Below, piece by piece: positions 8,841-35,749 of a stretch of DNA of 40,016 nucleotides (within the stretch, counting starts at the first letter, position 1; every line of letters starts with the position of its first letter). This DNA comes from Treponema sp. (lineage in GTDB: Bacteria; Spirochaetota; Spirochaetia; Treponematales; Breznakiellaceae): contig JAITFK010000016.1 of NCBI GenBank assembly GCA_031281555.1, positions 1 through 40,016 on the forward strand. Direction: 5' to 3'. The position numbers were made by a program, and so were the translations under genes. The notes under the pieces are model-generated. The model worked only from the letters and a program-made list of their open reading frames with translations, was not told where the DNA came from and did not search any database.

Positions 8841-10458
8841 CGGAAACCTCCTTTACAGTTTTTACAGTATTTTTTGATTTTTTACGCCGTTGTGAAGCAA
8901 GAATTAACCCCGCGGCGATTACAATCAGCGGGATAATGCCTACATTCAGGATTTGTGCAAATTTCATTGCGGCTACGCGCTTATCAATATCCGCAATTCT
9001 ATCAAGACGGCTTGTCTGCGGCTGTTTACTTCTAATACTTATAATATCATCGTCATTGACAAGCCAGTCGGCGGCTCGCATCATAAAATCAAGGTTATGA
9101 TTTGCCTGCGTAACGTTTATCATATTTGAGGCAAAATTGGTATTTCCGACAACAATGATCCGCGAAGGGCTTGCCTGCTGCGGCATATCAGGTAGTTCTT
9201 CTTCAGAACCTTCACGCTTTGGTTTCGGAGAGCCGCGGAAGAAACTCGGGAAAGCTCCGGTTAAAGACACTCCAAGGATTTTCTCTCCGGTTGTTTCATT
9301 TTTTTCAAGTTCCAGCATATATGGGATTTCAGGATTTGCGCTAAAATCTTTACTCATAACCCATCCTTCTTTTGAAGTTGTAAAAAGAACAGTTGACTCA
9401 ACATTCGGAACAGGGTTCAATTCCAAAGGACTTGCCCAGAAAAGATCAAGCCCGAAAAAATTTGAACTTATGGGATGTTTCGGATTTCCGTTTTCTCCTA
9501 ATACGCTTATCCACAAAGGATAACGCACAATCCTGTATTGAAGACCGCCGCTCGGCGATCTGGTTTGATATATCATTTCAAGAGCATTACGATCCAGAGT
9601 AAGTTCCGGTCTTATGATTACCCCGTAGGCGGCAATCATTTCCAGCATCCCCTGATCAACTTTTTTCATTGCCTCAAGCGAATTGTAAAAGGTATCTACA
9701 AAAATGCTGTCTTCCGCGAAAAGAACCCTGCCGCCGAGCTGAATGTACCTGTCAATTCTGTAAAGCCCCCAGTGATCAATATCTTCAACTCCTCCAAGAA
9801 CAAAAAGCGCGGGAAGGTTATCAGGAATTTCTTCGCCGGGGGTCAGCAGCCGTACTGTATAACCTGAGTCTTCCAACATCGTATTCAATAATGAGTAATG
9901 TTCCCTCCATTGCATATAACCGTCGCCGACAATTATTCCGACATGGCGTTCTATTCCTGTCACCATTGAACGAATCCTTGATGTCAGATCATATTCAAGA
10001 GTATCTGTTGACAGTATCCATGGAAGAACTTCGTATTTGTCAAGATATTCAATTACAATACCTGAAAAAACTGTAATGAAACTTGCTTGATCCTGCGCAA
10101 CTGTCTGAATCTGCCTTGATTGAAGCCCGTATTCTTCAATCACACCGGAAAGCCCCGTATTTACCGGATCGCGGACAGAAACAATTATTTTCCCTTTTGA
10201 ATATGCCGCGTATTCTCTTAACATATCTTCAATTTCACCCGGAACCGGTACGATTGTTTTTAATTTGTCGGAAAGATAATAGGTTATATTTACCGGATTT
10301 TGCAATTCCATGCGAAGGTTACGCGAAACTTGCGAAATTGTATACGCTTTGTTTTTTGTAAGATCAAGGCGAAACCAGTAACGTCCGCTGACAAGGAAGC
10401 CTAAAATACACGCAGTTATTGATAACAGCATAATAACAGTCGTTTGTTTCTTGTTCAT
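8830..10458 (-). CDS. GldG-like ABC-associated membrane protein
   Basis: The product is 542 residues from the chosen start. An N-terminal membrane helix (about 7-27) is followed by RLDLTKNKAYTIS, a hallmark of GldG/ABC-auxiliary proteins, then a large extracytoplasmic domain and a C-terminal helix just before a basic tail (SQRRKKSK). I chose ATG 10458 over ATG 10482 because AAGGAG lies 10 bases upstream and the signal anchor then starts directly; the earlier start overlaps the permease gene by 10 bp. In Bacteroidetes GldF/GldG act in gliding or secretion. Here the protein is more likely part of an export or envelope ABC system of unknown cargo. Confidence 0.8.
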   Translation of the reverse strand: MNKKQTTVIMLLSITACILGFLVSGRYWFRLDLTKNKAYTISQVSRNLRMELQNPVNITYYLSDKLKTIVPVPGEIEDMLREYAAYSKGKIIVSVRDPVNTGLSGVIEEYGLQSRQIQTVAQDQASFITVFSGIVIEYLDKYEVLPWILSTDTLEYDLTSRIRSMVTGIERHVGIIVGDGYMQWREHYSLLNTMLEDSGYTVRLLTPGEEIPDNLPALFVLGGVEDIDHWGLYRIDRYIQLGGRVLFAEDSIFVDTFYNSLEAMKKVDQGMLEMIAAYGVIIRPELTLDRNALEMIYQTRSPSGGLQYRIVRYPLWISVLGENGNPKHPISSNFFGLDLFWASPLELNPVPNVESTVLFTTSKEGWVMSKDFSANPEIPYMLELEKNETTGEKILGVSLTGAFPSFFRGSPKPKREGSEEELPDMPQQASPSRIIVVGNTNFASNMINVTQANHNLDFMMRAADWLVNDDDIISIRSKQPQTSRLDRIADIDKRVAAMKFAQILNVGIIPLIVIAAGLILASQRRKKSKNTVKTVKEVSGDI

Positions 10459-10472
10459 TTTCCGCCTTCTCC

Positions 10473-11210
10473 TTATTTCCACTTCCTGAAAATGATAATG
10501 CGTGTATTAATGAATAAAAACAAGAACGCGCTTAACGCCAAAAAAATAACATCCCTTGAATCAATTATACCTTTGGAAAAACTTTCAAAATGATAAGCAA
10601 GCGAAAAAAAGTTGATAAATCCCGCAAGCCACTGAGGAAGGTTTAATGAATATGTAAACATATTCACAAACATTACAACCATTAAAATAACAGCGCTGCC
10701 GAGAAAACTGCCTGTCTGGCTTTTGGAAAGCGATGATAAAAGCAGCCCAAGGGCAACAGCGCTTACGCCTAACAAAAACGCTCCGGCATATTCGCAAAAT
10801 ATAACGCCAGTGTCATAATTACCCAAAGGCAAAAGGCTTAACGGAATTGACAGTGTCAGAAGAAGCATGACAGATAACACTGCGAACGTAGAAAAAAATT
10901 TCCCAAGCGCAAGATCCCATTCCGTAAAAGGCATTGTAAGTAAAAGCTCTACAGTTCCCGTCTTTCTTTCCTCTGCCCAGCTTTTCATTGTGATAACGGG
11001 AATTACTATTATATAAGCGACCGGGAAAACGCTGAAGTATGTCCTAAGCGTAGCCTGATTCATGGAAAAATACCGCAGAAAATAAAACAATGACACTGAG
11101 TTAAAAAGAAGAAAGAAAACGGCAGCGCCGTAAATTGCCGGTGAATACAGATATTGGTACAATTCCTTGCGCGCAAGCGTAAACGCGCGGTATGGCAGAA
11201 TGTTTTTCAT
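10473..11210 (-). CDS. ABC-2 type permease (GldF-like)
   Basis: The product is 245 residues with about six hydrophobic helices. The conserved region after helix two reads TMKSWAEERKTGTVELLLTMP, which is the E-rich loop typical of GldF/NosY-type ABC-2 permeases (SAERRxGTxExLLxxPV). It follows the ATPase gene with a TAATG stop-start overlap at 11208-11212, so the two are translationally coupled. With the ATPase it should form the transport core. The following GldG-like and DUF4340 proteins are the exported partners. The cargo cannot be read from the sequence. Confidence 0.88.
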   Translation of the reverse strand: MKNILPYRAFTLARKELYQYLYSPAIYGAAVFFLLFNSVSLFYFLRYFSMNQATLRTYFSVFPVAYIIVIPVITMKSWAEERKTGTVELLLTMPFTEWDLALGKFFSTFAVLSVMLLLTLSIPLSLLPLGNYDTGVIFCEYAGAFLLGVSAVALGLLLSSLSKSQTGSFLGSAVILMVVMFVNMFTYSLNLPQWLAGFINFFSLAYHFESFSKGIIDSRDVIFLALSAFLFLFINTRIIIFRKWK

Positions 11211-33607: not shown

Positions 33608-33811
33608 ATGAAAGCTGGAATTCATCCCAAATATGAAATGACAAAGATAACCTGCGTCTGCGGGAATGTAATAGAAACCCGTTCTACAGTAAAGGATATA
33701 AAGGTAGAAATTTGTTCTGCCTGCCACCCTTTCTTCACAGGCAAACAAAAACTCGTAGACACAGCCGGACGCATCGAAAGGTTCAGGAAGAAATACAACA
33801 TTAAGGAATAG
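33608..33811 (+). CDS. rpmE: 50S ribosomal protein L31, zinc-binding form
   Basis: The product is 67 residues. [20 protein letters not shown] and [24 protein letters not shown] are diagnostic for L31, with the zinc ligands CxC (16 and 18) and CxxC (36 and 39), so it is the C+ form. GGAGG lies 7 bases before the ATG. The gene ends the long rightward operon region, and palindromes follow 2 bases after the stop. Confidence 0.96.
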
Positions 33812-33883: not shown

Positions 33884-33918
33884 GAAGTTGTTTAGAAATT
33901 TAAATTCTAAACAACTTC
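33884..33918. terminator. Near-perfect palindrome between convergent genes, terminator-like
   Basis: GAAGTTGTTTAGAA (33884-33897) and TTCTAAACAACTTC (33905-33918) are perfect 14-bp inverted copies with a 7-base AT loop. It sits 8 bp from the end of the leftward exported-protein gene and after rpmE, so it could stop transcription from both sides. The stem is AT-rich and the flanking T-run is weak. Confidence 0.45.
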
Positions 33919-33925
33919 AATAATA

Positions 33926-34381
33926 TTACTTTTGACCTACCCACTGGACATCAGTCAGCTTAAAAACCGATTTTCCAACCGTATCATTAACTTTTAAGCA
34001 AATACCGGTTAGTTTAGATGCGTTTACCGGGCCGCTACCAAACCATTTTTTTGTAAAATTTTCAAAACCTGTTTCAATAGGTCCCTTATCTATTATTCCG
34101 ATTGATTGCTCATTGCCAAGCGTTGCGCCGGGTTGATATACGCACTGCCAAATAACTTCAAGGGGATTACTGAGAGTAAAATCTAAAAGTATTTTATCAA
34201 AATCAACGCCCGCCGACTTAAAGTAGATATAAACATAATTTACGCCTTTATTTAAGGTAATCGTATTATCTTTGGCAGCCGAACCGCCTTCTTTTCCGGT
34301 AACCTTCCATTCGGGCACTTTTTGGGCAAAGACCGCCGTGCCGATAACTAACAAAACCGCCAATACTAAATACTTCTTCAT
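33926..34381 (-). CDS. Small exported protein of unknown function
   Basis: The product is 151 residues. A clear signal peptide (MKKYLVLAVLLVIGTAVFAQ) is followed by a beta-rich domain of about 130 residues with many aromatic residues (NYVYIYFKSAGVDFDKILLDF, VIWQCVYQPGA, FENFTKKWFGSG) and an ending KLTDVQWVGQK. This layout suggests a jelly-roll, carbohydrate-binding-like fold, but I do not recognise the family. The start is firm: AAGGAG lies 7 bases before the ATG. It is convergent with rpmE and divergent from the methyltransferase gene across about 300 bp that contain the MITE-like element. Confidence 0.78.
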   Translation of the reverse strand: MKKYLVLAVLLVIGTAVFAQKVPEWKVTGKEGGSAAKDNTITLNKGVNYVYIYFKSAGVDFDKILLDFTLSNPLEVIWQCVYQPGATLGNEQSIGIIDKGPIETGFENFTKKWFGSGPVNASKLTGICLKVNDTVGKSVFKLTDVQWVGQK

Positions 34382-34457
34382 ACTCCGCTCCTTGATTTTA
34401 CTCCGTAAGGCTGATTATTGAACATCCTACGGACATTCATTAAGTAAACAATATTAT

Positions 34458-34600
34458 GGGAACCTCTAAAAACTTCAGTTTTTAGAGGTTATCTTAACCT
34501 ATGAAGAAAATCGCACTACACTAATTCCTTATACTACAATGAGTTAGCGATTTTCTTCGTGGAACCTCTGAAAACCCAAACGGGGTTTTTAGAGGTTCCC
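34458..34600. repeat. MITE-like palindromic element, 143 bp, with TTAT direct repeats
   Basis: The ends are perfect 16-bp inverted copies: GGGAACCTCTAAAAAC (34458-34473) and GTTTTTAGAGGTTCCC (34585-34600). The element is flanked on both sides by TTAT (34454-34457 and 34601-34604), as a target duplication would be. Each end is itself a hairpin (34461-34490 and 34561-34599), and a third stem GAAGAAAATCGC/GCGATTTTCTTC (34503-34514 and 34547-34558) lies between. There is no reading frame of note inside. It occupies most of the otherwise empty gap at 34382-34684. No transposase in the window can be matched to it. Confidence 0.6.
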
Positions 34601-34684
34601 TTATGCAAATTTAGTTAAAATATTTTATTATGTAAATTACTTTATGATCAAGAAAAAAACTATGTTTTCTTGCGGGAGAAAACC

Positions 34685-35749
34685 GTGTATAACGGGAATG
34701 AAAAAACAAAGACTCAAGCGGAAATGCTTGCCAATCGGCTTTTAAAAAGGCTACACCGCCTCAAAAAATGGGCACAGAGGACAGGAGTTGGGGTTTTCAG
34801 GCTGTACGACCGCGATATTCCCGAAATTCCCATTGTTTTGGATTACTACGGAAACACCGCCAAGCCGCAGGAAGCCGCCGTTGCCGGAGCGCTTTACAAA
34901 CGCCCTTACGAAAAAGACAACACCGAAGAAGAGCGTTGGCTTTCCGCAATGAAAGACAGCGTTGCAGCCGCGCTGGGAATAGATCCTTTGCGCATATTCC
35001 TGAAACAAAGACAGCGGCAAAAAGGAGCTTCCCAGTATGAAAAAACGGGAGAAGCGCGTTTTATAAAGAATGTTGATGAGAGCGGTCTTGTTTTTAAGGT
35101 AAACCTTTCCGACTACCTTGATACAGGACTCTTTCCCGACCGCCGCCTGCTGCGTTCTATTATTCGAAGCGAATCTTCAGGTAAAAAATTTTTGAACCTG
35201 TTTTCCTATACAGGTTCGTTTTCAGTTTATGCGGCGGCAGGAGGAGCCCAATCGACAGATTCAACCGATCTTTCCAACACTTACCTTTCATGGGCAAGGA
35301 AGAATTTTTCGCTTAACGGATTTACAGCGCAAATGTTTACCGGACAGGAAGACTTTTTTGCCTCAGTCGAAAGAGAATCTGTTCAAAAACACAGACTTAT
35401 CCGCGCGGACGTATTAAAATTTGTTGAAAAAGCCGCAAGTACAAAGCTCCGCTGGAACATTATAGCGCTTGACCCGCCGGCTTTTTCAAACTCAAAGAAA
35501 ATGACTGGAAATTTCGACTTACAGCGCGACATAACGGGATTGCTAAAAAAATGCTGTTTTTTACTCGCTCCTGAGGGGAAAATCTTCCTGAGTGTAAATA
35601 TGCGGCATTCAGGCATAAAGGCGGCGCAATTAGAAACCGAACTTGCTTCTTGCGCCAAAAATGTAAAGGTAACGGACATCAGCGCTAAAGTTACAGATGA
35701 GGACTTTAAGGGGAAAAAAACGCCTGATACTTTTATTATTCATATATGA
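34685..35749 (+). CDS. RlmK/RlmI-like class I rRNA methyltransferase
   Basis: The product is 354 residues. The front (ANRLLKRLHRLKKWAQRTGVGVFRLYDRDIPE) matches the start of the RlmK half of E. coli RlmKL. The SAM fold has KFLNLFSYTGSFSVYAAAGGA as motif I, TDLSNTYLSWARKNFSLNG next, and IIALDPPAFSNSKKM as the catalytic-loop motif. It probably methylates 23S rRNA; the exact base cannot be set from sequence. The frame opens at TTG 34670, but I chose GTG 34685 because GGGAG (34674-34678) lies 6 bases upstream and the alignment starts there. Its promoter region contains the MITE-like element. Confidence 0.85.
   Translation: MYNGNEKTKTQAEMLANRLLKRLHRLKKWAQRTGVGVFRLYDRDIPEIPIVLDYYGNTAKPQEAAVAGALYKRPYEKDNTEEERWLSAMKDSVAAALGIDPLRIFLKQRQRQKGASQYEKTGEARFIKNVDESGLVFKVNLSDYLDTGLFPDRRLLRSIIRSESSGKKFLNLFSYTGSFSVYAAAGGAQSTDSTDLSNTYLSWARKNFSLNGFTAQMFTGQEDFFASVERESVQKHRLIRADVLKFVEKAASTKLRWNIIALDPPAFSNSKKMTGNFDLQRDITGLLKKCCFLLAPEGKIFLSVNMRHSGIKAAQLETELASCAKNVKVTDISAKVTDEDFKGKKTPDTFIIHI

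Follow-up and report, generated by a model that had tools for sequence, protein, structure and literature searches.

A 143-bp triple-hairpin repeat of Treponema as a probable non-autonomous MITE of the IS5 family

Between two divergent genes on a Treponema sp. contig lies a short, strongly palindromic repeat, which raises the question of whether it is a mobile element and, if so, to which family it belongs and what enzyme moves it. The window, that is, the whole analysed stretch of 40,016 nucleotides, is contig C119 of a 2.49 Mb assembly (G000; 212 contigs, 82.7% complete). A sequence-only reading had described a MITE-like element of 143 bp with perfect 16-bp terminal inverted repeats (TIRs) and TTAT at both borders, a description that direct reading shows to be correct to the base; the further claims, that each end folds on itself, that the arm sequence occurs four times and that a third stem lies in the middle, are likewise all seen in the sequence. 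That reading assigned the element to no known family, a position now superseded by placement in the NF033581 group of the IS5 family, for which we argue below. The whole unit runs from GGG to CCC at 34458-34600, and the locus is laid out as follows.

33926-34381, minus strand: divergent open reading frame (ORF) without a Pfam match, starting 76 bp to the left of the element
34454-34457, no strand: left target-site duplication (TSD) TTAT, by direct reading, with the 4-bp register taken from 62 relatives
34458-34473, plus strand: left TIR GGGAACCTCTAAAAAC, the same as IS5-family element ends
34461-34490, plus strand: hairpin A, 13-bp stem with loop TTCA (helix 1; 99.4% paired, both-sided change at 3 pairs)
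34491-34502, plus strand: linker ATCTTAACCTAT
34503-34558, plus strand: middle hairpin GAAGAAAATCGC...GCGATTTTCTTC with an inner stem of TAATTC/GAGTTA type (helices 2 and 3)
34561-34599, plus strand: hairpin B, 17-bp stem GGAACCTCTGAAAACCC / GGGTTTTTAGAGGTTCC (helix 4)
34585-34600, minus strand: right TIR GGGAACCTCTAAAAAC, by direct reading and comparison with insertion sequences
34601-34604, no strand: right TSD TTAT, by direct reading
34670-35749, plus strand: gene for a SAM-dependent methyltransferase (PF10672), divergent neighbour

The TIRs at 34458-34473 and 34585-34600 match perfectly, and the unusual feature of the element is that each end forms its own hairpin. Positions 34461-34473 of the left TIR are also the left arm of hairpin A, and the AACCTCTAAAAAC-type arm recurs at 34478-34490, at 34563-34575 (as AACCTCTGAAAAC) and at 34585-34597. 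The arms of the middle stem are 34503-34514 and 34547-34558, and the TTAACC of the linker is the endpoint of some truncated copies at other loci. The element has no transposase ORF and carries no gene.

Further copies, as expected of a MITE, were found both in the same genome and in relatives. The window's own assembly gives 58 matches to the element; other full-length copies lie on C47 (94%), C153 (93%) and C68 (90%), making at least four in total, and truncated ones on C19 (at the contig edge), C185 and C122. Dozens of solo hairpins accompany them, of type A (loop TTCA/TGAA) or type B (CCCAAACGGGG). Another composite type, which shares the end hairpins but is built around a different middle stem (GTTTCGTAGCC..GGGCGAGAAAC), occupies sites on the genome's own contigs C154, C126 and C153 (L033, L038, L042) as well as L058, and reaches a very high density in one Spirochaetaceae MAG (JAITCP records). 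Matches occurred in 28 of 60 relatives, and in a phylum-wide sample the hairpin family was present in 32 of 393 genomes, every one from the same order; the end sequence is almost invariant between genera. When the collections were scanned with the hairpin, the matches listed came from genomes of Treponema and Spirochaetaceae, including many MAGs as well as T. vincentii, T. putidum, T. porcinum and T. denticola. The sole non-spirochaete among the matches listed, a Flavobacteriaceae record (L115), was rejected as a family member on its layout of A-tract, hairpin and T-tract, probably an unrelated terminator. The element itself was not matched in plasmid and phage collections, and literature searches found no paper with its TIR sequence or a comparable Treponema MITE. 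Two composites of one Treponema MAG (L118, L173) bear an extra nested palindrome, CGGACTTTAGTCCG, in the middle, which looks like another small repeat that has inserted into the MITE.

Mobility is recorded in the flanks. From the loci we cut 181 non-redundant elements, 62 two-hairpin composites and 119 solos. Identical 4-mers lay exactly at the GGG/CCC border in 39 of the 62 composites, where 200 re-pairings of the flanks gave an expectation of 2.1 and a maximum of 5; identity drops sharply at other registers and lengths. The 4-bp direct repeat is therefore not due to chance, and the register test also rules out the TA-only target that a Tc1/IS630 origin would imply. The IS5 group has a strict YTAR target. 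The TSDs of the hairpin family deviate from strict YTAR (TTAA makes up 3 of the 39), and those of the autonomous copies found in this analysis deviate likewise.

An empty site was obtained for the sister type by comparing 400 kb of G038 with its counterpart in T. putidum (the two are 88% identical over 225 kb). A 143-bp G038 composite reads TATA-GGG..CCC-TATA, and the orthologous T. putidum site reads ...CCCTATAGTTTAAATATAA with a single TATA, followed by the same right flank as in G038; T. putidum also lacks a second composite. Copies elsewhere in the genome together with this empty site go against the refuting outcome named in the sequence-only reading, a lack of both. At the window's own copy the junction could not be aligned: none of 19 methyltransferase-bearing relative loci has a hairpin near the gene start, but relatives of the window are only ~70% identical and the intergenic sequence is too diverged for it. 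Nor were empty sites readable between T. vincentii and other g3 genomes, again because of intergenic divergence.

The TIR led to the probable mover. A scan of viral contigs with the bare 16-mer found IS5-family transposase genes bordered by it (L451, L454, L455), of which L451, on a phage contig, is intact at 1296 bp, with ends GGGCACC/GGGAACC, TSD CTCT and a 396-aa transposase. The IS5 element of pWW0 has ends GGGCACCTCGAAAAAC, and its transposase, used as query across the order, matched 16 of 394 genomes. The order does hold autonomous partners with identical ends, as these copies show.

G360 insertion sequence: 1246 bp; TSDs ATAT/ATAT/TAAA; TIR 16/16 at the left end
G326 insertion sequence: 1210 bp; TSDs AATA/TGTA/TAAA; TIR 15/16
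G455 insertion sequence: 1237 bp; TSD TAAT
G460 insertion sequence: 1261 bp; TIR 16/16 at both ends

With the NF033581 profile, whose cut-off is 140 bits, the G455, G360 and G460 transposases reach 279-292 bits. Closer to the window, a partial insertion-sequence copy whose TIR matches at 15/16 is present in a genome of the same genus (G010). A decayed copy lies in T. putidum. A transposase with the same TIRs thus exists in other genomes of the order; the window's own assembly, at 82.7% completeness, yielded none of NF033581 type, and such a gene is lacking in most genomes that bear the MITE. What the MITE has in common with the insertion sequences is the TIRs only. In G360 one end is GGGAACC and the other GGGCATC, an asymmetry that the left and right ends of the T. 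denticola-group MITE also show. The folded-back TIR copy is absent at the ends of four of the five insertion-sequence copies checked, with a weak match at one G326 end.

Other candidate movers were set aside. DDE_Tnp_1 (PF01609) matches in G000 and relatives lack the TIR at their ends, and G032, G038 and G043 have none; PF13586 gave no match above cut-off in eight genomes. No TIR pairs 0.7-3.2 kb apart with matching duplication occurred in 2 Mb of loci, two leads (L099, L125) were hairpins with inserts, and the repeats of at least 400 bp in 1.6 Mb of G038 included no recognisable insertion sequence.

We conclude that the element is very probably a non-autonomous MITE of the IS5 family (NF033581 group) with a three-hairpin plan, mobilised in trans via its TIRs, and an NF033581 transposase presumably moved the window copy as well. 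An IS5-family DDE transposase of this group would recognise the 16-bp TIR in trans and cut at the GGG/CCC ends, and the 143-bp unit would have inserted into A+T-rich DNA at a 4-bp staggered cut, leaving TTAT on both sides. Each MITE end would consist of the TIR plus a second, inverted TIR copy, so that two minimal TIR-TIR hairpins bracket the middle hairpin and the outer ends would move both hairpins and the middle as a single unit. The IS5 insertion sequences (pWW0, G360, G326, G455, G460) share the 16-bp TIR and 4-bp target duplication with the element but are about 1.2 kb long and encode a transposase. Small, multi-copy, transposase-less elements with IS5-matching TIRs are described in Porphyromonas gingivalis (MITE239, MITE464, BrickBuilt) and Neisseria (ATR) (PMC4596501); their TIRs, of GAGACC type or ACGTCAGTTCGA type, are unlike that of our element, and triple hairpins are not described in the parts of that account available to us (PMC4596501).

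One refinement of this assignment takes the solo hairpins of about 36 bp as the mobile unit, with the 143-bp element a composite of two, in the manner of a composite transposon. Exact 4-bp duplications flank 30 of the 119 solos (expected 2.7, maximum 8 in 200 re-pairings), and the inner ends of composites lack GGG (having TGG or ATC), as expected of silent inner ends. Yet a direct-repeat deletion, A-right/B-right or A-left/B-left, would yield the same product with its TSD retained, and no orthologous site that separates solo movement from deletion was found. We hold the refinement to be possible but the less likely course; more probably, solo hairpins with TSDs are deletion products between repeated arms, comparable to solo LTRs. 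At three loci (L010, L017, L025), copies made of hairpin A and TTCTTAACC(C) are bounded by the 4-bp duplications ATAG, ATAT and ATAT, as if an inner TTAACC had served as the end or a deletion had been joined at CC microhomology.

The fold is conserved. As single-stranded DNA the element folds into three hairpins with z = -10.5, a fold not equalled by any of 200 shuffles; as plus-strand RNA, a long TIR-TIR form (-64.3 kcal/mol) and the three-hairpin form (-60.4 kcal/mol) are close in energy. In 26 aligned window-type copies, pairing in the three local hairpins reaches 96.5%, and both partners have changed at 16 pairs, against 7.2 in shuffles (0 of 500 as high). These counts are not probabilities, because the copies are related rather than independent. 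In the same 26 copies the alternative TIR-TIR and cross-arm helices showed no both-sided pair changes. The distinct mispair types number 16 G-T and 18 A-C, a balance that argues for upkeep of the palindromes at the DNA level, by cruciform or single-strand selection or template-switch correction, and not as a one-strand RNA.

A more speculative proposal makes the hairpinned ends a working part of the element: a REPIN-like replicator would have arisen convergently around a cut-and-paste transposase of the DDE (IS5) kind, and its end and middle hairpins would be maintained as cruciform or single-strand DNA structures with a role in regulating or aiding transposition or in limiting host damage. 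We consider this rather unlikely; if true, it would explain why one three-hairpin plan is common across the order despite differing middles.

Could the element instead be a functional RNA or transcription signal that the host has domesticated (as terminator, riboregulator or processing site), its spread being secondary? Its stable fold, covarying stems and near-invariant end sequence across genera speak for such a role, but conservation of the TIR is also expected because the TIR is the transposase site, and a one-strand RNA would favour G-U, against the near-equal G-T and A-C counts. No Rfam family match reached the gathering score, and no promoter-like or terminator-like site was found inside the element. 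Its placement in front of the methyltransferase gene, noted in the sequence-only reading, is true, but since it sits between two divergent ORFs it precedes both; the methyltransferase probably starts at a GTG at 34685 with a GGGAGA ribosome site (by inspection), 84 bp right of the element. Across the family, in a looser locus set, orientation relative to genes shows no clear preference, and the earlier suggestion that the element supplies or blocks signals for the methyltransferase gene is left unsupported. We regard a signal role as improbable.

Still less probable is a REPIN/BIME-like element, a hairpin doublet moved by a REP-associated tyrosine (Y1) transposase, or an IS200/IS605-type PATE. 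REPINs, or REP doublets, comprise two hairpins and a spacer, with singlets as likely remnants, compensatory changes and intergenic siting, and RAYT Y1 enzymes are proposed as their movers (PMC3116915). Our family is alike in its doublet and spacer, its singlets, its both-sided compensatory changes and its siting (in 2 Mb of two oral treponemes, 27 of 27 hairpin elements lie outside called ORFs, which make up 91% of the DNA). It differs in having 4-bp target duplications at its exact borders and ends identical to those of DDE insertion sequences, and Y1_Tnp (PF01797) is absent from six of eight genomes (G000, G019, G038, G043, G061, G063), among them the copy-rich G000, G038, G043 and G063. IS200/IS605 elements are not known to duplicate their target when they move. 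BOX, Correia and NEMIS-type repeats are modular, palindromic and intergenic, as here, but differ in sequence and mover.

The 'Rpn' nuclease/transposase genes of PD-(D/E)XK type (PF12784), which are common and multi-copy in Treponema, deserve next to no credence as agents of dispersal: G038 has up to 37 PF12784 matches and one T. putidum Rpn gene terminates inside a hairpin, but G043, with ~170 arm matches and no PF12784 gene, refutes Rpn as a general mover, and the remaining Rpn genes checked have no hairpin at the 3' end. At that T. putidum locus (L309, G063, ~10308-11205), the last codons and stop of the gene (...EEIANL*) come from a solo hairpin's left arm, GCGAACCTCTAA, so that an insertion seems to have given the protein a new C-terminus.

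With the IS5 assignment, a repeat recurring in many Treponema-group genomes now has a family, a probable mover and a target rule, and its composite hairpin plan offers a test case for the origin of folded-end non-autonomous elements. Because REPIN-like anatomy is here paired with an IS5-type DDE transposase and not with RAYT, REPIN-like shape alone is not diagnostic of the mover. There are practical consequences too: annotation may confuse such repeats with terminators or REPs, and they break assemblies, several contigs ending in them.

Three further features lie near the element. An inverted repeat TCCGTA/TACGGA at 34402-34433, just upstream of the start of the minus-strand ORF, could be an operator or leader hairpin. 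Downstream of rho, the 110 bp at 33701-33811 show 77-89% identity to most of the order's genomes and are probably a small ribosomal protein gene, such as is often found after rho. Between rho and the minus-strand ORF, a self-complementary stretch of 35 bp (33884-33918) is possibly a bidirectional terminator.
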